From positions 1 through 20,192 of the forward strand of contig JAQEDR010000019.1 in NCBI GenBank assembly GCA_027669155.1: 20,192 nt of DNA, in the 5' to 3' direction. The stretch's first letter is position 1; the number at the start of each line of letters is the position of its first letter. The position numbers were made by a program, and so were the translations under genes. Positions 9,184 to 19,890 of this stretch are shown here, one piece after another. Source of the stretch: Peptoniphilaceae bacterium AM52-5BH. GTDB lineage: Bacteria; Bacillota; Clostridia; Tissierellales; Peptoniphilaceae. The notes beneath the pieces were generated by a model. The model ran no database searches and had not been told where the DNA came from. It saw only the letters and a list, made by a program, of their open reading frames with translations.

Positions 9184-9203
9184 GGGTAAATAAAAAGTAA
9201 AAT
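9176..9203 (+). promoter_or_regulatory. Putative promoter of the antiporter leader
   Basis: TTGAAT at 9176-9181, a 16-bp spacer and TAAAAT at 9198-9203, overlapping the end of rnhA. If active it would give a leader of about 90 nt before the antiporter ATG, containing a small hairpin (AGGGAA 9210-9215 with TTCCCT 9225-9230) and the larger one at 9247-9285. Confidence 0.4.
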
Positions 9204-9246
9204 AAACTTAGGGAAATGAAGTTCTTCCCTGTAAAATAAACGCTAT

Positions 9247-9290
9247 AAGCTGATGACTTCTACTTAAGAGTAGGGCCATCAGCTTTTTTT
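9247..9290 (+). terminator. Intrinsic terminator or attenuator directly before the antiporter RBS
   Basis: The outer stem AAGCTGATG (9247-9255) pairs with CATCAGCTT (9277-9285), and an inner stem CTACT (9260-9264) pairs with AGTAG (9269-9273). Seven T residues follow at 9284-9290. The Shine-Dalgarno AGGAGG (9291-9296) begins at the next base. It ends the rnhA operon, but because it sits between a promoter candidate and the next gene it may also attenuate that gene. Confidence 0.75.
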
Positions 9291-9300
9291 AGGAGGAAAA

Positions 9301-10494
9301 ATGTTAACAAATGTCGGACTTATAATGATAGCAGGTCTAATCGGGTCTAAAATTTTTTCAAAAATCAAACTTGCCCCCATCTTGGGCATGCTTCTAGCAG
9401 GAATTATCATAAGCCCCAATCTCTTGGGACTAGTAAAGGGAGATATAGGGGCTCTTTCAAAGGACTTAAGGCAGATTGCTCTAGTAGTAATCCTATCGAG
9501 GGCTGGCCTTAGCCTATCTTTTGATAGATTAAGGGAGGTCGGTCTTCCTGCAATCCTAATGACCTTCCTTCCAGCAAGCTTTGAGATGGTCGCTATAACA
9601 TTTCTTGCTAATAAAATCTTTAAGCTTCCCTATATCGACAGCGCAATCCTTGGAGCTGTTCTTGCGGCAGTATCTCCTGCCATAGTCGTGCCAAGGATGA
9701 TAAGACTTATAGAAGAAGGCTATGGAGAAGATAAGAAGATTCCCGAGATAATCCTTGCAGGCTCTTCCATAGATGATGTCTACACCATAGTATTTTTTAC
9801 AGTTTTTATCAATCTAAAGCTAGGAGGTCAAGCCTCTATAGGAAGTTTTCTAAATATTCCTATATCAATTATTACAGGAATTCTTTTTGGAATATTAGTA
9901 GGATATATCCTATATATAATTTATTCAAATATAAATTTGGGCAGAATTTATAAGGCAATCGCCCTTATGGGCCTATCATTTTTTATCTTGGAAATAGAGG
10001 ACTTGGCTAAGAGCTATATAGCCTTCTCGGGCCTTGTGGCTATTATTTCTATGACTATGACGATTAAAAAACTTGACCAAGACCTTGCAGATGAACTTTT
10101 GGATGTTTACTCTAGCCTTTGGGAGCTTTTTGAGATCTTCCTCTTTGTCCTAGTGGGAATTACAGTAGATCTTTCTATAATAGGAGAAGAAATCATACCA
10201 GCCCTTCTTCTAATCACAGGAGGTATAATATTTAGGATGCTTGGAGTTTACCTGGCTCTTCTTCCTTCAAATCTTGAAAAATCTGAGAAGATATTTTCAG
10301 GCTTCGCCTATCTGCCAAAGGCCACAGTCCAAGCAGCCATAGGACCGGTCGCCCTAGGATATGGGATTGCAAGTGGTAAGCTAATCCTCGCCATATCAGT
10401 AATAGCAATCCTCTACACAGCACCCCTTGGAGCCATACTTACAGATAAGACCTACAAGAAGCTATTAGCTCAAAATAAAAAAGCCAAGCTTTAA
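9301..10494 (+). CDS. Cation/proton antiporter (Na+/H+ exchanger family, CPA type)
   Basis: An integral membrane protein of 397 aa with about 11-12 hydrophobic segments across its whole length and no cytosolic regulatory domain. Features of monovalent cation:H+ antiporters are visible: R67 in L-S-R-A-G-L near the fourth span, S125-P-A-I-V-V-P in the discontinuous-helix region, and the S-S-I-D158-D159 pair at the expected ion-binding site. It should exchange cytoplasmic Na+, K+ or Li+ for H+; the ion cannot be read from the sequence. A strong AGGAGG sits 4 nt before the ATG. Expression may be controlled by the terminator-like hairpin just upstream. The end of the gene overlaps a bidirectional terminator. 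Confidence 0.88.
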   Translation: MLTNVGLIMIAGLIGSKIFSKIKLAPILGMLLAGIIISPNLLGLVKGDIGALSKDLRQIALVVILSRAGLSLSFDRLREVGLPAILMTFLPASFEMVAITFLANKIFKLPYIDSAILGAVLAAVSPAIVVPRMIRLIEEGYGEDKKIPEIILAGSSIDDVYTIVFFTVFINLKLGGQASIGSFLNIPISIITGILFGILVGYILYIIYSNINLGRIYKAIALMGLSFFILEIEDLAKSYIAFSGLVAIISMTMTIKKLDQDLADELLDVYSSLWELFEIFLFVLVGITVDLSIIGEEIIPALLLITGGIIFRMLGVYLALLPSNLEKSEKIFSGFAYLPKATVQAAIGPVALGYGIASGKLILAISVIAILYTAPLGAILTDKTYKKLLAQNKKAKL

Positions 10495-10526: not shown

Positions 10527-11279
10527 TTATAGAAATTTCTTAGCTTTATCTATTTCGGATTTTAAATCTTCTAAGATATCATATTCCTTTTCGATAACTA
10601 GGTTATTGAAATCATTTAGCTCGCCTGTACCAGCGTATTTATCAAGGCTTTCATAATAACTAGGTCTATCACTAGCCTCGATTATTATAGCTTTGAATCC
10701 ATTAGCCATCAAGACATAGTTTAATAGTAATCGTGCACATCTACCGTTTCCGTCTTGGAAGGGGTGGATTTTTACAAATTGAGCATGGACGAAAGAGGCT
10801 AGTTCAATAGGATTTAGAACTTTAGTTTTAGTATTATAATCCATTATGAAAAACTTCATATCTTCCCTAACCATAGTCCAATCAGGTGGACTAAAAGATG
10901 CACCTGTAATCCTTACGTTATATCTCCTGTAAATACCACCATCAATAATATTTTCCATAACTATTTGATGAATATCTTTGATTAATTCCTCATCTAATTC
11001 TCGACCCTGTGCAAGCATTTGATGGATATATCTATTAGCCTTTTGATTGTTAGTGACTTCGTAGATTTCCCTTAGCTCCTTGCCCCCTATAGAAAGTTTA
11101 TCAATTAAAATAGTTTTTACTTCACTTATACTTAAGGTGTTTCCTTCTATTTTTGTAGATTCGTGAGTAAATTTAACATTAAAATCTTCCATCATACTTT
11201 TATAGGTTTCTTTTGGTAAATATTTTATATTATCATTGACATAATCGTTTAATTTGCTAACTTTTTCGAAAGTAATCAT
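10527..11279 (-). CDS. Fic-domain protein (AMPylase-type, class II with N-terminal inhibitory motif)
   Basis: A Fic enzyme that is expected to transfer AMP, or another nucleotide part, to a hydroxyl of a target protein. The active-site loop is complete: H172-P-F-Q-D-G-N-G-R180, with His172 as catalytic base. The N-terminal inhibitory helix is also present, S41-T-K-I-E45-G46, matching (S/T)xxxE(G/N), whose Glu blocks ATP placement in self-inhibited Fic proteins. The inhibitor is thus in the same chain, before the Fic core (class II). The length of 250 aa suits a solitary Fic protein; there is no C-terminal winged helix. The ribosome-binding site GAGGGAG precedes the ATG, and a TATAAT-like -10 (11320-11315 on -) lies about 35 bp upstream. 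No separate antitoxin is seen. The target is unknown. Confidence 0.9.
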   Translation of the reverse strand: MITFEKVSKLNDYVNDNIKYLPKETYKSMMEDFNVKFTHESTKIEGNTLSISEVKTILIDKLSIGGKELREIYEVTNNQKANRYIHQMLAQGRELDEELIKDIHQIVMENIIDGGIYRRYNVRITGASFSPPDWTMVREDMKFFIMDYNTKTKVLNPIELASFVHAQFVKIHPFQDGNGRCARLLLNYVLMANGFKAIIIEASDRPSYYESLDKYAGTGELNDFNNLVIEKEYDILEDLKSEIDKAKKFL

Positions 11280-11398: not shown

Positions 11399-12139
11399 TT
11401 AATTTTCTCCCAAAAATCTCTTTAGGAACTCCTTGGTCCTGTCGTGGTCTGGGTTTGTGAAGATTTTTTCTGGAGTGCCGTCTTCTAGGATGATTCCCTT
11501 GTTCATGAACAAGACCCTACTAGATACGTCTCTTGCAAAGTCCATCTCGTGGGTTACGACGATCATGGTCATACCGCTTTTGGCAAGCTTGGTCATTACA
11601 TCTAGGACTTCTCCAACAGTCTCTGGGTCGAGGGCGCTTGTTGGCTCATCGAAAAGAAGGAGGTCAGGATTCATGCAAAGGGCACGGGCTATGGCTACCC
11701 TTTGTTGCTGGCCTCCGGAGATTTGGCTAGGCTTTGCATTGACATAGTTTTGCATATTTACGCTTTCTAGGTACTTTCTAGAAATTTCTTCGGCTTCCTT
11801 ATGATTTCTACCGAGGACCTTGATTTGACCTAGCATGCAGTTTTCAAGGACGGTCTTGTTGGCAAAGAGATTAAAGTTTTGAAATACCATGCCTACCCTG
11901 GACCTGTATTTTCTTTGGTCGAACTTATGGTCTAGGATATTGTCGCCCCTGTAGAGGATCTCTCCGCTTGTAGGAGATTCCAAGAGGTTAAGGCAGCGAA
12001 GGAGGGTCGACTTACCAGATCCAGAAGATCCTATGATAGATACTACTTCTCCTTCATTTACTGCCATATTTATATCCTTAAGGACTAGATTGTCCCCGAA
12101 TTTTTTCTCTAAATTGTTTACTCTAATTATCTCAGACAT
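11399..12139 (-). CDS. Polar amino-acid ABC transporter, ATP-binding subunit
   Basis: The ATPase of a PAAT-type amino-acid importer, 246 aa. It has Walker A G37-S-S-G-S-G-K-S-T45, Q-loop Q87, signature S141-G-G-Q-Q, Walker B L-L-L-F-D-E (160-165) and H-loop H197, so it should be active. I took the ATG at 12139, preceded by AGGAG with a 6-nt gap; the frame stays open further up but that part overlaps the permease and is not ATPase-like. The start overlaps the end of the upstream fusion gene by 8 nt, so the two are co-translated. Substrate is set by the partner and suggested by the T-box leader (probably lysine). A strong terminator follows. Confidence 0.95.
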
Positions 12140-13697
12140 TGTTTGCTCCTGTTGATGATTCCATGATAAAGTCAGTATCCCTAAATCTTCTTTCAAGGAC
12201 AAGAAGGATTCTCGTAATAGTGAAGGTTAGTACGAAATAAATTACTGCTGTTATCAAGTAAGTTGGGAAGTATTGGTAGGTTGATCCTGCGACAGACTTA
12301 CTCATAAAGAAGAGCTCTGTTACAGAAATTACGTTAAGGACTGATGTATCCTTGATGTTTATTACAAACTCGTTTCCGATTGATGGGAGGATTGTAAGGA
12401 TTGTTTGAGGAAGGATTACGTGAACCATAGTTTGGAAATGGGTCATGCCTATAGCCTTGCAGGCTTCAAACTGTCCCTTGTCAATCGAATTGATTCCACC
12501 ACGGACTACCTCAGATAGGTAGGCTCCAGTATTGATAGAAACTATAAGGATTGCCGCAAACATGGTCGATAGGTCGATATCGAAATATTGTTTGAGTCCG
12601 TAGAAGATTATTACAGATTGAACCATCATTGGGGTTCCCCTAAATATCTCAACATAAGCTCCCAAGATCCAATTGATTATTTTGTGGAGATAGTAGGTAA
12701 AGGCATTTTCTGTCTTTTTGACTTCCATTCCTCTAATAACTGCAACCAAAAGACCTAAGAGGAAGCCTAGGATTGTGGATATTACGGCTATGATTAGGGT
12801 ATTTACCACACCCTTTAGGAAAAGAGTAGAGTAGGTCGCCCAAATCGATTTAACTTCATCGACAAAGCCTGCACTTTCTTCCTCATCTGCAGTAAGCTGG
12901 GTCATGACTCCCATAATCTCAGCCTGTTCCTTTTCTATATCCATAGATGAAAGAACCTTGTTGATATCTTCCGTTAGAGGAGAGTTTTTGGAAATTCCTA
13001 CTCCTACTGTCGTATCTTCATCATTAGTAGTAAAGCCATTTGCTTCGTCGAAAGTTATATAGGTAAGCTTTGGGTTGGCGGCTATGGCAGATTCAGCACC
13101 AGCTTCTTCTGAGATATAGCCGTCAATTGTTCCAGCATTTGCAGCAGCAATCATGGTAGGGAAGGAGTCCATGGATTCTTGTTTGTTAACACCTGCCATC
13201 TGATCGATCATAGCTACGTGGAAGGTCCCTAGTTGGGCGGTAATCTTTGCTCCCTCAAAGTCATTAATGGACTTGGCATCCTTGTACTTTGAATCCTTTT
13301 GGGTAACTACAACCATCTTGGCATGGTAATAAGGAATAGAAAAGTCGATTTGCTCGAGCCTTTCAGCAGTTGGGCTCATACCAGCAACTATTGCATCGAT
13401 CTTGCCACTGGTTAGGGCAGGTATTAGTCCATCCCATTCGATCTTGTAGATTTCAAGTTTCTTGCCTAGACCATCGGCGATCTTCTTGGCAAACTGGACG
13501 TCATAACCGTTGGCATACTCACCCGGGGAGTTGGCTACAGGATAGCCTCCATTTTCATCACTTACTTCAGAGAAGTTAAATGGAGCGTAGTTTACTTCCA
13601 TACCTACTCTGAATGTGTCTTCTTCGCTTGCATTAACCTGGCCAAGGGGTGTTATGATTAGGATAAGTGCAAGGATAATCTTTACTAGCTTTTTCAT
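12132..13697 (-). CDS. Amino-acid ABC transporter: substrate-binding protein fused to permease
   Basis: A two-domain importer subunit of 521 aa. Residues 1-24 are a signal peptide (no lipobox Cys). Residues 28-275 form a family-3 solute-binding domain, with the ligand-carboxylate motif M-S-P-T-A-E-R followed by I-D-F-S-x-P-Y-Y. Residues 295-510 are a HisM/GlnP-type permease domain with the EAA loop E-A-C-K-A-I-G-M and about 4-5 spans. Binding-protein/permease fusions of this kind are common in Firmicutes (for example GlnP-like proteins); the binding domain stays tethered to the membrane. I chose ATG 13697, with AAAGGA upstream and a typical signal peptide; the longer open frame runs into the T-box terminator. 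The lysine-like T-box specifier points to lysine or a related basic amino acid. Confidence 0.92.
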
Positions 13698-13730
13698 AAT
13701 AAATCCTTTCATGATATATTTGATTGTAAA

Positions 13731-13988
13731 ATAAAAGTCCTTACTGCTCCAAATGGAAGCAATAAGGACGAAAATTCGCGTTACCACCTTAATTTTAGCT
13801 CATCTCACGACAAACTACTCAATAAGTACAATCATACTCTCTTGCTATAACGGGCAAGTCCCGCTGTCAGATCAAATATCCCCGACAAAACTCAAAGGCT
13901 TTTTTCACCAAAATTTAAAATCTCCATTCACACCAGCCAGGATTCTCTTTATTTTAAAATCTTTGGTTACTCCTCTTATCATTGTTGT
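13731..13988 (-). promoter_or_regulatory. T-box leader riboswitch (probable lysine specifier) for the amino-acid ABC operon
   Basis: Transcribed on -. The conserved T-box sequence AAGGTGGTAACGCGAA (13790-13775) forms the antiterminator and pairs with the tRNA acceptor end. It is followed by a terminator hairpin (13769-13737, about 14 bp) with a T run (13736-13731). Upstream is Stem I with AGTA of the loop-E motif (13971-13968) and the GGCTGGTG element. In the specifier loop the 3' side reads G-AAAAAA-G (13906-13899). Every sensible placement of the codon after the GAA bulge gives AAA or AAG, so lysine is most likely. Uncharged tRNA should allow readthrough into the importer genes. The T-box identity is firm; the specifier is a hand fold. 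Confidence 0.9.
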
Positions 13989-13995
13989 TGTTTAT

Positions 13996-15341: not shown

Positions 15342-15883
15342 ATACCAAAATACACAAAAGAATTTAAAATTAAATTAATAAATGAATATTTATCAGATGA
15401 AACTGGTGGTCGATTAATGATTTTTAAAAAATATGATATACCTGAAGGTACATTGAAAAACTGGATAGTCAAATATAAGTCAGGAGGTTTTGACAAATTA
15501 ACTAAAAAAATAAGAAGAAATATACTAGTGAATTTAAACTATCTGTAATACAATATAGACAAATAAATAATACTACATATAGACAGACTGCAGAACACTT
15601 TGATATTAGCAATGGATCAACAATATGCCAATGGTTAGAAGATAATAGAGGTAGGCCTAAGAAAGATATATCTAAATCAGATAAGAAACCTAAGAACGAA
15701 AAACAAATATCTGAATCCGAAAGAGAAGAATTAATAAGACTTATAGCGGAAAATGAATATATAAAGGCAGAAAACAAAATAATAAAAAAAGAAATCGCCT
15801 TGAGAGAAAAGAATTACGCTGCGGAACTCAATGCGAAAAAGCAGAGATTGTCAAAAAACTCAAAGAAAAAGACTACAGACTAA
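15342..15883 (+). pseudogene. IS3-family OrfA (broken)
   Basis: The reading begins at ATA (15342-15344), where related elements have ATG before P-K-Y-T-K-E-F; a GGAGGGG ribosome-binding site remains just upstream, so the start codon appears lost. Two helix-turn-helix repeats follow, the first with G-T-L-K-N-W and the second with G-S-T-I-C-Q-W. Between them the A run at 15504-15510 is one base short, which shifts the frame. The C-terminal leucine-zipper-like region and stop (15881-15883) are intact. OrfA normally binds the ends and joins OrfB by programmed frameshifting. Confidence 0.8.
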
Positions 15884-16698
15884 AATGTCTTTTAATAGCT
15901 ATCGATTTGCCAAAATCAACATACTACTATGAAATTAATAAAGTTTATGCTGTTAAGATTAGAAATAAAAATATAGAAAATAAGATATCTGAGATATTCA
16001 ACAATCACAAAGGAAAATATGGTGTAAGATGAGTATATAGAGAATTATTGAATCAAGGATATGCAATAAATTATAAAAAAGTTCAAAGAATAATGCATGA
16101 ATCAAAACGATTTGGTAAAAGACTAGAAAAAAATATCATTCATGCAAAGGAAAAGTAGGGAAGATTGCTGATAATATAATAGACAGATATTTTAAAGCTG
16201 ATAATCCGTTACAAAATGGAGTACTTATGTATCTCAATTTAACTTTTTATTATGTAAATGCTACATTTCACCAATACTGATATGTATATAAATGAGATAA
16301 TCTCATATGACTTACCCTTAAGTCCTAATTTAAAGCAAATATCTAATATGCTAATGAAAGTATTTAACAAATTTCCAAAACTAAATAACTTAATCTTACA
16401 TTCAGATCAAGGTTGGAAATACCAACATAAATATTATATAAGTGAACTCAAGAAACACGGTATTATCCAATCGATGTCAAGAAAAGGTAATTGTTATGAT
16501 AACTCAATTATGGAAACGTTTTTTTCAAGATTAAAGAATGAAGTTTATTATGGTTACGAAAAAAGGTATAACTGTTTTGAAGAATTTTCGAAAGGAATAG
16601 AATAATACATCTATTATTACAACAACGAAAGAATTCAGAAGAAAACAAAATGGATGCCACCTACAAAATATAGGCTGGTATCCACTGCAAATAATTAA
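15820..16698 (+). pseudogene. IS3-family OrfB, DDE transposase (broken)
   Basis: This is an rve-type DDE transposase. Lesions read directly: CGA to TGA at 16030-16032; a one-base loss in the A run near 16128; another in the A run near 16215; the first catalytic Asp of W-S-T-D-V-S-Q changed to Tyr; a one-base loss near 16277; and GAA to TAA at 16603-16605. The later motifs H-S-D-Q-G-W and N-S-I-M-E-T-F-F (second Asp and Glu) and the Y-I-Y-Y-Y-N-N-E-R-I tail survive. The open stretch 16258-16605 is only a fragment of this gene, not a gene of its own. Confidence 0.88.
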
Positions 16699-16754
16699 TT
16701 AAGTATTGTGTCCAGTTTTATGGGTACACATCATCAGCGGGGTGTTTTTTGTTG

Positions 16755-16783
16755 TTGTAGAGAGAATTTACAGATGTTATAAT
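16755..16783 (+). promoter_or_regulatory. Promoter of the XRE / 225-aa / 500-aa module
   Basis: TTGTAG (16755-16760), a 17-bp spacer and a perfect TATAAT (16778-16783). It lies 27 bp beyond the IS3 remnant and 48 bp before the regulator ATG. No terminator is seen between it and the two following intact genes, so it probably drives all three. Confidence 0.7.
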
Positions 16784-16830
16784 GTATCTATTAAGGATAA
16801 TTTTGTACATCCGAATGAAAGGAGAATACT

Positions 16831-17041
16831 ATGATAAAGAATAATATTGAAGAGGATGTAAAAGTAAAGTGTATTGAAGCTGGAAAGACTCAGGTGCAGC
16901 TTGCAGAAGAGATTTACTGGCCAGTATGTTAACCGGATCATTAAGAAAAAAGATGGGGTTGTTAATAAAACCTTTGTACAGATTATAGAGGCCTTAGGCT
17001 ACGATATAGAAATTACATATGTAAAGAGAGGAAACAAATAG
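16831..17041 (+). pseudogene. XRE-type helix-turn-helix regulator, frameshifted
   Basis: It starts with ATG 16831 and a strong AAAGGAG. The first 30 codons give an XRE-type start (C-I-E-A-G-K-T-Q-V-Q-L-A-E-E-I). The frame then breaks and ends at TAA 16930-16932. In the +1 frame from 16922 the expected second half continues (Q-Y-V-N-R-I-I-K-K) to TAG 17039-17041. The junction looks like the loss of a few bases, perhaps 5, at the turn of the helix-turn-helix. Intact it would be a repressor of about 70 aa. The next gene starts 1 nt after its stop, so it was probably the autoregulator of the module. Confidence 0.8.
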
Positions 17042-17042
17042 T

Positions 17043-17720
17043 ATGTTTGACATGGCTAAAACCTTGATAGTCGTCTATAAAGACGAAATGCTTGTTAATC
17101 AGCTAAAGAAATTGGTGGAAACCAACGATGTCTCTGACGATGAACAAATTGTCGGAACGAGAGGAGATTCCATCAATATCGTTGCTTGGACAGAAAAAGT
17201 GTGGATTGGAAATAAGAAAGCAGGAAATATCAAAGATAAGGTTTTATTCTTAGATGATATAAAAGGAACAGATAAGTTAATTCCAGTTATAGATGTTAAG
17301 TTCGATGATTGTGGGGTTAAATTCGGTTGGGCAGGCAACCAAGCAGTGCTATTCACGGACATTAAAGCAATTAGTTCGGATGAAGACTATTTGGCTTTCA
17401 TAAAAAAGTTAGCTGTCCTTCCTGTTCCAGAGATGATAAAAAAGCCAGTAAGCATAAAAACTGAAGAATATAATGAAATAGTATCAAATGAAATTATTGA
17501 ATTGACACATGATATCGAAGAAAAAAAAGAACCTGTATTCTTGAGAAGAGCAAAGAAAGGTATATCTAAAGGTGCGAATGCTGTAGGGAAAGTAGGACGC
17601 TTGGTAGCAGATAAAACCGCTGATCTATTGAAAGATAAAAAAGCCATAAAGCGTCAGATGATGTTTTATGGAGTAGTAAATCTTTATAGAGATGGACTTA
17701 GAGAGTTCATGAATGTGTAG
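17043..17720 (+). CDS. Uncharacterised alpha/beta protein with basic C-terminal tail (module gene 1)
   Basis: A 225-aa protein of unknown function. Residues 5-28 read as a beta strand (T-L-I-V-V-Y) and an amphipathic helix; further strands are seen at about 44-55 (I-N-I-V-A-W-T-E-K-V-W-I-G), 66-71 (V-L-F-L-D-D), 82-96 and 101-106. This suggests a Rossmann- or flavodoxin-like alpha/beta domain of about 125 residues without a P-loop. A charged linker (about 135-163) leads to a Lys/Gly/Ala-rich helical tail ending Q-M-M-F-Y-G-V-V-N-L-Y. There are no membrane spans. GAGAGG lies 11 nt before ATG 17043; ATG 17052 is a possible alternative. It is preceded by the XRE remnant and followed 10 bp later by the 500-aa gene. 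I recall similar unnamed pairs in clostridial genomes, but this is memory, not a search. Confidence 0.75.
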   Translation: MFDMAKTLIVVYKDEMLVNQLKKLVETNDVSDDEQIVGTRGDSINIVAWTEKVWIGNKKAGNIKDKVLFLDDIKGTDKLIPVIDVKFDDCGVKFGWAGNQAVLFTDIKAISSDEDYLAFIKKLAVLPVPEMIKKPVSIKTEEYNEIVSNEIIELTHDIEEKKEPVFLRRAKKGISKGANAVGKVGRLVADKTADLLKDKKAIKRQMMFYGVVNLYRDGLREFMNV

Positions 17721-17730
17721 GTGATAAACT

Positions 17731-19233
17731 ATGAGTAAGTTGGAAGATGTAAAATACGGTTGGGATTTTATGGCCACGCTACTTGGCGCTGATATGGCAG
17801 GTCGTAGTGCGCTTTCTGATTACATGAATAATATGAATCAAAATGATGCTATTCATATAAAAAATGCACATATAAAACAAATAAATGAAGCTATAGACCA
17901 GCTTGCAAAAAACATTAATGAGCATCCTCATCTAAACCTAGATGTTGAACAGTTCAAAGGTTTTGTTGCAGAAGAAATGCATGCTGGAACTTTTAATATT
18001 GACGCTATACGTCAAGGTTCTGAACATAGAGCTTGGACGCTTCAAGATACTGGTTATGCAACAGTTGATGTTGAAACAAACTTTGGTAAATCTTATAGTT
18101 TAAAGTACTCAAATACTGCAAAAGGATCAGAAAATATGCAAGCGGCATTGAATCCGAATAACAGAGCTGCTAAATATCATGGGCAAGAACGCCTTATTGC
18201 ATCTGAACAAGTAGATGAAGCTAAAGGTTGGGCACATAGAAGAGGCCTAAAGGATATTCAAAATAGGCCGGATGTATCTAAGGCACACATGGAAACTGAA
18301 AAACATTTAACAGGGAAAATATCTGATAGTGAGGGTGTAGAATCTAAGGAACTTACAATAAAAGAGTCAAAGCAGATTGCCAAGGAAGCAAAGGATGGAG
18401 GTTTTGATCCGGAAAAGCATGGATACAGTAAAGATCCCTTGTTAGAAGAAGTTCGTATAGATTATATAAACCGAGCAATGAAAGCAGGACTTACTGCGGC
18501 GGCAATATCTGCAATTACTCAGATTGTTCCTGAACTTTATAAAGCAATTGACTACCTTATTAAACACGGTGAGATAGATGTCGCAGGATTAAAGAAATCT
18601 GGCAAGAAAGTGATTTCTGCAAGCGGTGAGGCTTTTCTTAGAGGTTCAATAGCATATGTGGTTGAGATGGCGATTCAAGAAGGATTACTAGGAGAAACTT
18701 TTAAACAGGTAAATGCATCTGTAGTAGGTGTTGCAGTTACAGTTATTCTTGGCACTATTAAAGATAGTATTCTTGTAGCAGCAGGAAAGATGACCACAAA
18801 AGAAATGGGAATTAAGTTTATTGATACGATAGTCATTTCATCTGGTTATTTAGTGAGTATGAAGGTTGGTGGAGCTATTGCTCAAACTCTATGTCCACAG
18901 TTACCAGGAATAGGTTATGCCATTGGTAGTTTGCTTGGTTGCTCTGTGGCTGTGGTATATAACATCGGTAAGAAAAAATTGATATCATTTTGTGTCGATA
19001 CGGGATTCACTTGTTTTGGATTGGTAGAACAAAACTACGAATTACCGGACGAAGTACTTAGAGAGATGGGAGTTCATTATATCCCAGTTCCAAAAACAGA
19101 AATTCAGAGATTCGATGTGAACAGAACATCTACTGCAGTAGAAATAAATACATCGGATTATGAGACAATTGATATTACTGTTCTACGAAGAGGAGTTATT
19201 GGGATAAACCGAATTGGTTATGTAATATCATAG
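17731..19233 (+). CDS. Uncharacterised large protein, soluble N-terminus plus glycine-rich membrane half (module gene 2)
   Basis: A 500-aa protein of unknown function. Residues 1-130 are mostly soluble, with H-A-G-T-F-N-I-D-A (84-92) and then a strand pair T-V-D113-V-E ... Y-S-L-K125-Y that resembles, without proving, the D...xxK core of PD-(D/E)XK nucleases; Ser123 stands where Glu or Gln is usual. Residues 131-245 are a charged helical linker. Residues 250-412 hold about five hydrophobic, Gly/Ala-rich segments (about 250-266, 300-315, 328-350, 361-385 and 393-411). The motif S-F-C-V-D-T-G-F-T-C-F-G-L-V-E-Q-N-Y follows (419-436), then a polar beta-like tail. There is no signal peptide. AGGTGA precedes the ATG. 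It could be a membrane-acting effector, but no activity is demonstrated. Confidence 0.75.
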   Translation: MSKLEDVKYGWDFMATLLGADMAGRSALSDYMNNMNQNDAIHIKNAHIKQINEAIDQLAKNINEHPHLNLDVEQFKGFVAEEMHAGTFNIDAIRQGSEHRAWTLQDTGYATVDVETNFGKSYSLKYSNTAKGSENMQAALNPNNRAAKYHGQERLIASEQVDEAKGWAHRRGLKDIQNRPDVSKAHMETEKHLTGKISDSEGVESKELTIKESKQIAKEAKDGGFDPEKHGYSKDPLLEEVRIDYINRAMKAGLTAAAISAITQIVPELYKAIDYLIKHGEIDVAGLKKSGKKVISASGEAFLRGSIAYVVEMAIQEGLLGETFKQVNASVVGVAVTVILGTIKDSILVAAGKMTTKEMGIKFIDTIVISSGYLVSMKVGGAIAQTLCPQLPGIGYAIGSLLGCSVAVVYNIGKKKLISFCVDTGFTCFGLVEQNYELPDEVLREMGVHYIPVPKTEIQRFDVNRTSTAVEINTSDYETIDITVLRRGVIGINRIGYVIS

Positions 19234-19237
19234 TTTA

Positions 19238-19399
19238 TATTACGTAAGTAGGATTAAGGCATATCCTCAAGTAATAGTTAGAGAAACCGAAGATGTTGGG
19301 TTTGATATGGAGTACAATGTATTCTGAGATTTATATGGAGATGCCTTTGCTGAAAATTGGTCTTATGCATATTTTGATAGAGTAAATGGCAGGATTTAA
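19238..19399 (+). pseudogene. Remnant of a phage-type gene of unknown function
   Basis: One frame reads as protein-like sequence (I-V-R-E-T-E-D-V-G-F-D-M-E-Y, then D-L-Y-G-D-A-F-A-E-N-W) for about 53 codons, broken by TGA at 19325-19327. Its TAA (19397-19399) shares a base with the ATG of the DUF3310 relic (TAATG), as in a tightly packed phage operon. No start is visible, so it is a 3' fragment. Family not recognised. Confidence 0.5.
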
Positions 19400-19890
19400 T
19401 GGATATGAAAAATGATGTTATAACTAGTCCTAACCATTATAGGTTGAATGGATTGGATATTTAGGTGAAAGTCGTTATCAAGAGTGCCTTGGATACTGTT
19501 GGACATCTAGGTTTTTATAAAGGTTAGACCATTAAGTATATTTTAAGAGCCAACAAAAAGAACGGATTAGAAGATTATAAAAAGGCAAGGAAATACTTAG
19601 ATTGGTATATTCAAGAGCTAGAAGGCGATAAGGATTGCGAAGGTCAGATGATATTTTTGGAGGATAAAATGGAGAGAGAATTAACACCAGAAGAAGAGCA
19701 AGAATTTGATGAATTGAGTAGGAAATTATTACGTACGGCGCCACCTATGACAGGAGAAGAATTGGAAAGATTTGGAAAATTGTCCGAGAAAAAGTATGGA
19801 ACTGAGGAAGAAATCGCCGAAGAGCAGAGACAAAATCGTAAAAATTTCCTAAAATTGCAAGAAAAATTGAGTAAAAAGGTTGCAAAATAG
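19399..19890 (+). pseudogene. DUF3310 phage protein, interrupted by two stop codons
   Basis: In one continuous frame from ATG 19399 the reading gives S-P-N-H-Y-R-L-N-G (the usual N-terminal motif of DUF3310 phage proteins), then I-K-Y-I-L-R-A-N-K-K-N-G-L-E-D-Y-K-K-A-R-K-Y-L-D-W-Y. Two stops lie inside, TAG at 19462-19464 and TAG at 19525-19527. The last part, from ATG 19648, stays open (80 codons, strongly charged, Glu/Lys-rich, coiled-coil-like), but it is the C-terminal end of the same frame. DUF3310 proteins are found in tailed phages and prophages, often with early or replication genes; their role is poorly known. The relic points to an old prophage or phage-derived island here. Confidence 0.82.

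Follow-up and report, generated by a model that had tools for sequence, protein, structure and literature searches.

The window, which is the whole stretch of 20,192 nucleotides analyzed here, carries two intact adjacent genes that would constitute an accessory anti-phage module, in which a membrane-tethered nuclease-like effector (gene 2) acts together with a soluble partner (gene 1). We assign this reading a probability of about 0.55, and a defence role of the pair, taken more broadly, is very probable. The evidence consists of the near-constant pairing of the two genes, the co-occurrence of gene 1 with a C-terminal tail of gene 2, the location of the pair in defence islands and on phages, and the invariant motif residues of gene 2.

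Organization of the locus

Gene 1 (17043..17720, + strand) encodes a predicted soluble protein of 225 amino acids, whose linker is variable and whose C-terminal region is conserved, and gene 2 (17731..19233, + strand) encodes 500 amino acids comprising a nuclease-like domain, a membrane-type domain and a tail. The gap between the genes is 10 bp, and both open reading frames are intact with the coordinates and lengths given in the initial annotation, which had described two long lesion-free frames. The relics that it had placed on both sides of the pair are visible as well. They comprise an interrupted transposase at 15.5–16.7 kb (15500–16700), which we take to belong to the IS3 family and whose longest remaining frame is 16258–16605, and a broken frame at 19.3–19.6 kb (19300–19640), which presumably resembles a phage DUF3310-type protein. 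In comparison with the homologous locus L001, gene 1 shows a dN of 0.234 and a dS of 2.12, and gene 2 a dN of 0.126 and a dS of 2.10, with synonymous sites near saturation in both genes; the dS values against L002 and L003 are saturated. With dN of 0.23 and 0.13 against dS of ~2.1, neither gene shows relaxed selection, and the substitution pattern indicates that purifying selection acted in the history of both genes.

Directly upstream of gene 1 lies an XRE-type regulator (16831..17042, + strand), in which the small indel reported earlier is confirmed as a frameshift. Its segment 16868–17038 matches an intact 68-amino-acid XRE regulator located immediately 5′ of gene 1 in the viral contig L044 (phmmer E value of 2.6e-19). 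Since, among all of the pairs seen, only those of the window and L044 have a homologue of this regulator beside them, we rejected the XRE regulator as a core part of the module, to which it had originally been assigned. Farther upstream, an extended -10 promoter-like sequence, TGTTATAAT (16775..16783, + strand), can be recognized by eye with a weak -35 element. The consensus scan found no + strand site at 16775–16783, and promoter-like sites in the region were fewer than in shuffled sequences (6 versus a mean of 11.6). Thus, the 'consensus promoter' of the initial annotation is only partly right.

Regarding the other features of the window, 10 further proteins were scanned against PADLOC, and only a Fic-type protein, an ABC ATPase (generic models only) and one regulator (a weak match to a WYL model) gave matches; therefore, the window's own neighbourhood adds little to the defence case. 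The Fic-type protein (10527–11279, - strand), 5.8 kb upstream of gene 1, matches PDC-S04 with an E value of 1.5e-40 and SoFic with 4.5e-30. A T-box leader (13761–13991, - strand; Rfam RF00230, 102 bits) precedes the gene at 12132–13787, which we take to encode a fused binding-protein/permease of the amino-acid ABC transporter type, and a fluoride riboswitch (9203–9269, + strand; RF01734) lies directly 5′ of the gene at 9301–10494, presumably encoding a cation/proton-antiporter-like protein.

Homologues and distribution

In line with the initial description of both genes as uncharacterised, neither protein matched a family in Pfam, NCBIfam, PADLOC 2.0.0 or PHROGs (best E values of 0.09, 0.16, 0.021 and 0.1, respectively), and sequence searches of the PDB with gene 2 and with profiles of both genes gave no significant match. 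The structure models are of low confidence (mean pLDDT of 50.5 for gene 1 and 48.8 for gene 2), and Foldseek and VIA searches with the models of both proteins returned nothing above background; thus, we claim no fold from structure searches. Homologues are nevertheless abundant at an E value of 1e-3, numbering 1,168 for gene 2 (of 7,995 candidates scored) and 1,125 for gene 1 (of 1,536 candidates). They form more than a thousand clusters, with gut and rumen bacteria as the source of many and phages as that of some, and two or three of the 240 homologues listed carry a name, most being 'hypothetical protein'. Word-matching searches of the literature found no paper on this gene pair, so that its undescribed status is unproven; PMC13060105, in the portion available, deals with a different locus.

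The loci compared here were collected in a scan of a genome collection (40 loci), a viral scan (four) and a second viral scan (five, of which L118 is the sole new contig). Most were retrieved by searching for peptide patterns of the membrane part and the tail of gene 2, so tail-less forms are under-sampled. The distribution of gene 2 relatives is patchy: any relative occurs in 10 of 295 genomes of one order, a sample that includes the genome on which it was centred, and three of these 10 (G003, G028 and G285) contain the tailed gene 2 with gene 1. The pair is also present on five IMG/VR viral contigs (L041–L044 and L118), and in the phage NatCom_9287 it lies right after a type II restriction enzyme. 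In L118 (10586–13866), it is followed by a macro-domain-like protein, recognized by eye, and other small genes.

Pairing of the two genes and the C-terminal tail

Gene 1 lies directly 5′ of gene 2 in 41 of the 42 long tail-bearing loci, the window included, and L021 is the exception. The count covers gene 2 copies of at least 430 residues with the tail (40 of 41 in the main set, plus L118), and two of the 41 paired loci contain a broken gene (gene 1 in L006 and gene 2 in L008). Fragmented or broken copies were omitted (L022, L024, L029, L034, L036, L037, L038 and L047); among them, gene 1 is found in L024, L034, L037 and L047, a piece of it in L029 and none in L022, L036 and L038. In L047 (5944–8764), on a Peptoclostridium plasmid, gene 2 is split by an IS3-family element. 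At the level of whole genomes, gene 1 was found in 33 of the 35 genomes with gene 2. The Atopobium genome G010 contains a second, divergent gene 1 copy (C2:210875-211471), and one gene 1 copy in G006 is in two pieces. The two genes thus form a conserved pair among their homologues, as the initial annotation had supposed.

The C-terminal tail of gene 2 (SFCVDTGFTCFGLVEQ ... LRRGVIGINRIGYV; 18985..19221, + strand) is present in the versions paired with gene 1 and missing in a group of relatives that have no gene 1. None of these 11 more distant, tail-less relatives (the second copy in L046, L048, L049, L050 and L064–L070) has an adjacent gene 1; for L067, only ~215 nt upstream are visible, and its genome lacks gene 1. 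Furthermore, gene 1 was absent from all seven whole genomes of tail-less relatives that were searched. This co-occurrence of tail and gene 1 suggests that gene 1 acts at the tail.

Defence-gene neighbourhood

To describe the surroundings of the pair, we located four defence families in the 35 genomes with gene 2. Within 10 kb of the pair lie five of 32 matches to HSDR_N, three of 11 to McrC, two of six to PglZ and three of 29 to GmrSD_N. Pooled, this is 13 of 78 matches versus 0.70 expected by random placement, with matches treated as independent (Poisson), G018 and G020 each counting for HsdR and GmrSD_N, and G035 for HsdR and McrC. The 13 close matches come from 10 of the 35 genomes, and the other 25 have none of the four families within 10 kb. 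With the housekeeping family Clp_N as a control, 102 rows were obtained, and a single Clp_N gene lies close to the pair. The pair is therefore strongly enriched beside defence genes, as is typical of a defence-island accessory module.

In L039 and L035 the pair is nested in a BREX operon between pglX and pglZ: the order in L039 is PglX, gene 1, gene 2 and PglZ, with outer gaps of 13 and 72 nt, and L035 has the same order but for a TIR-like gene between PglX and gene 1, which matches PF13676 at 26 bits, under the cut-off of 28. In L018 and L020, gene 1 follows a DUF262-type gene (PADLOC HEC-05 and HEC-06) at a distance of 5 and 15 nt. McrBC genes lie upstream in L007, L022 and L037 (Pfam), and the McrC match near the pair in G035 belongs to the genome of L040. 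In L023, the pair is followed by a type I methylase. Type IIG enzymes are found upstream in L002 and L033, as is an NB-ARC protein in L028 (Pfam).

We also compared the neighbours of the pair with PADLOC models at an E value of 1e-10. Of 219 neighbours within 4.5 kb, 102 have at least 150 amino acids and lie within 1.7 kb; these 102 matched 239 models, versus 23 for 102 controls drawn at random from 225 proteins in 20 far regions; since PADLOC models overlap heavily, these figures are not protein counts. Matches to mad2, mad3, mad8, Cas3 and AriA were treated as generic, as they occur in the control set too. Nineteen neighbours, picked as long and close rather than randomly, were scanned singly, and they comprise 10 named defence components, one weak match (PbeA in L014), one discounted match and seven proteins without a match, for two of which Pfam gives McrBC (L022) and NB-ARC (L028). 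DolB (Dodola) in L031 is the match that we discounted, since that gene encodes a Clp_N chaperone. The mobile or defence character proposed from the window is thus borne out by the surroundings of its homologues in defence islands, BREX operons and phages.

Domains of gene 2 and its relatives

The N-terminal domain of gene 2 (about residues 70–235; 17938..18435, + strand) was aligned with diverse homologues, leaving aside L050 and also L070, whose similarity to gene 2 is confined to the C-terminal domain. Six residues are invariant in all 22 proteins: G77, E81, N89, A92, D113 and K125, of which E81, D113 and K125 are encoded on the + strand at 17971–17973, 18067–18069 and 18103–18105, respectively. 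Their spacing would correspond to the signature layout of a PD-(D/E)XK core. All 22 proteins have the helix glutamate (GxxxE), the aspartate and the lysine of Mrr and PD-(D/E)XK enzymes, and these residues align in register with those of the Mrr profile. Where these enzymes have E, D or Q at the first position of xxK, gene 2 of the window has a serine. This residue, two before K125, is a glutamine in six tail-less relatives, which gives the QxK of Mrr enzymes, a serine or glycine in all 13 tail-bearing versions aligned and a serine in three apparently exported tail-less relatives. Owing to this replacement of glutamine in the tail-bearing versions, their domain may bind DNA without cutting.

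In a profile comparison with 13 Mrr domains from the same genomes, the N-terminal domain gave P values of 0.0011 (all 22 proteins), 0.0014 (the six QxK forms) and 0.025 (tail-bearing versions alone). Reversed-profile controls gave P values of 0.19–0.74. Among 90 comparison windows from other families of neighbours, which were unfiltered for nucleases, the best P value was 0.033, and none reached 0.0014. A PD-(D/E)XK-type domain in gene 2 is likely on these grounds, while active DNA cutting by the protein of the window is somewhat doubtful.

The C-terminal half contains hydrophobic Gly/Ala-rich segments within residues 325–409 (18703..18957, + strand), as indicated by hydropathy, and glycine-zipper matches below the Pfam cut-off were found in the relatives L049, L066 and L068. 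This membrane half and a CFGLV segment are strongly conserved among close relatives. Thus, the faint nuclease-like core and the Gly/Ala-rich membrane half noted originally are supported by the invariant motif, the weak Mrr match and hydropathy. An essential role of both cysteines of the proposed Cys motif is not supported, as Cys428 is replaced by Leu or Met in L027, L031, L035, L044 and L046. Overall, the earlier interpretation stands for the conserved pair, its mobile or defence link and the two halves of gene 2, and it is unsupported for the regulator as a part and for the essential cysteine pair.

The relatives of gene 2 differ in their heads and neighbours. In L070, an LHH nuclease domain (Pfam E value of 3e-20) precedes the same C-terminal membrane-type domain as in gene 2; this gene (L108) lies beside a 999-amino-acid gene and, farther away, two small MNT-/HEPN-like genes recognized by eye. 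By eye, no signal peptide is seen in gene 2 of the window, and what looks like a signal peptide or lipobox is present in three tail-less relatives, L064, L065 and L046(-); their apparent export tells against a purely cytosolic DNase. The last of them is a second gene 2 relative on a Butyrivibrio plasmid (L046:8745-10673, - strand), 1.3 kb from the pair. A WYL-type regulator adjoins the tail-less relative L048, as confirmed by Pfam, and also L110, L111 and L113, as judged by eye; WYL regulators of the BrxR family are described, in the text available, as co-localizing with defence systems (PMC9122601). Lastly, a relative on a Klebsiella plasmid is preceded by a VWA gene and followed by AAA and CARF genes, and in the prophage-like L115 a portal-like gene, recognized by eye, adjoins the gene 2 relative.

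Comparison with known systems

A works-like analogy may be drawn with SNIPE (PD-lambda-1), a membrane-bound nuclease able to cut phage DNA during injection according to the accessible part of its description (PMC13190303). Like SNIPE, gene 2 would be a membrane-anchored nuclease-type protein suited to DNA cutting at the membrane. However, SNIPE is described there with one N-terminal transmembrane segment, DUF4041 and GIY-YIG, whereas the hydrophobic domain of gene 2 lies in its C-terminal half and a partner gene accompanies it, and no DUF4041 or GIY-YIG Pfam family was found in it at E values up to 1. Mrr-type nucleases (PF04471) share GxxxE, D and xxK in register with gene 2 in the profile alignment, but gene 2 has no Pfam Mrr match, carries serine for glutamine in motif III and adds a membrane-type half and a partner gene.

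BREX loci have repeatedly been reported to house auxiliary nucleases, among them PD-(D/E)XK-type genes inside BREX core loci, which is similar to gene 2; the part of that report available names no comparable membrane-tethered pair (PMC12839542). Unlike these nucleases, the gene 1 and gene 2 pair is also carried by phages and found in the vicinity of type I, McrBC and type II loci. BxaP, which occurs in BREX and RM loci, as well as PARIS and PrrC, are likewise second-line modules within or tied to restriction or BREX loci, as far as the available text describes them (PMC10799925; for PARIS also PMC12839542). We found no domain shared between them and the pair and saw no sign that anti-restriction proteins trigger it. 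The glycine-zipper toxins, such as LXG proteins and the T6SS toxin Tde1, resemble gene 2, to the extent that the sources cover them, in their glycine-rich helical domain, but no secretion domain was found in the paired gene 2, and the glycine-zipper matches of its relatives remain below the Pfam cut-off.

Alternative explanations

If the serine or glycine found two residues before K125 in 13 of 13 tail-bearing versions reflects a dead nuclease domain, this domain might serve to detect nucleic acid or a phage protein. Gene 2 would then be an abortive-infection membrane effector, with the glycine-rich domain depolarizing the membrane when triggered. The strong conservation of the membrane half and CFGLV segment in close relatives is consistent with such an effector, and glycine-zipper toxins that depend on the zipper or depolarize membranes are described in the portions available of PMC10434224 and PMC12744356. 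We consider it unlikely, as the invariance of E, D and K in 22 of 22 proteins goes beyond the need of a dead domain and an LHH nuclease stands in for the N-terminal domain in L070. The same LHH and glycine-rich architecture, the tight two-gene pairing and the apparent export of some relatives would also fit a toxin–immunity or toxin–antitoxin pair, in which gene 2 is a nuclease toxin that acts on its own cell or is sent to rivals and gene 1 is the antidote. However, gene 1 is absent beside 11 of 11 tail-less relatives; together with the lack of a signal peptide by eye in gene 2 of the window and the linkage of the pair to restriction and BREX operons, this makes such a pair very unlikely.

Finally, the pair could be cargo of phages or mobile elements that plays no part in defence; it might, for instance, provide an exclusion or entry-related protein and simply build up in islands. 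Its presence on phage contigs, the portal-like neighbour in L115 and the patchy occurrence of gene 2 relatives in 10 of 295 genomes agree with this, but mere accumulation accounts poorly for a pair nested in BREX operons and placed, in L018 and L020, just 5 and 15 nt downstream of DUF262 genes, and we regard the cargo explanation as highly improbable.

Proposed role of the pair

In the accessory anti-phage module that we favour, gene 2 would be the effector, with its N-terminal PD-(D/E)XK (Mrr-like) domain held at the inner membrane face by the glycine-rich helical domain. Gene 1 would be the soluble partner or switch that restrains or triggers gene 2, probably via the tail; its earlier designation as a 'sensor' is a guess. 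The target would be DNA at the membrane, namely incoming phage DNA, or alternatively the cell itself, as a back-up when the neighbouring restriction or BREX system fails. A more far-reaching idea, which is tentative and rather less probable than not, is a widespread class of membrane-tethered nuclease immunity, in which one glycine-rich anchor carries exchangeable heads (Mrr-like or LHH). The tailed branch would be run by gene 1 and other branches would have WYL or VWA neighbours, and in Bacillota the class might join BREX, type I and McrBC loci and serve there as a back-up striking DNA at the membrane. If the pair is indeed a membrane-tethered nuclease module, it would account for two adjoining genes that carry no label within BREX and restriction loci, and it would provide an independent family for the recent idea that self and non-self are told apart by the location of DNA.
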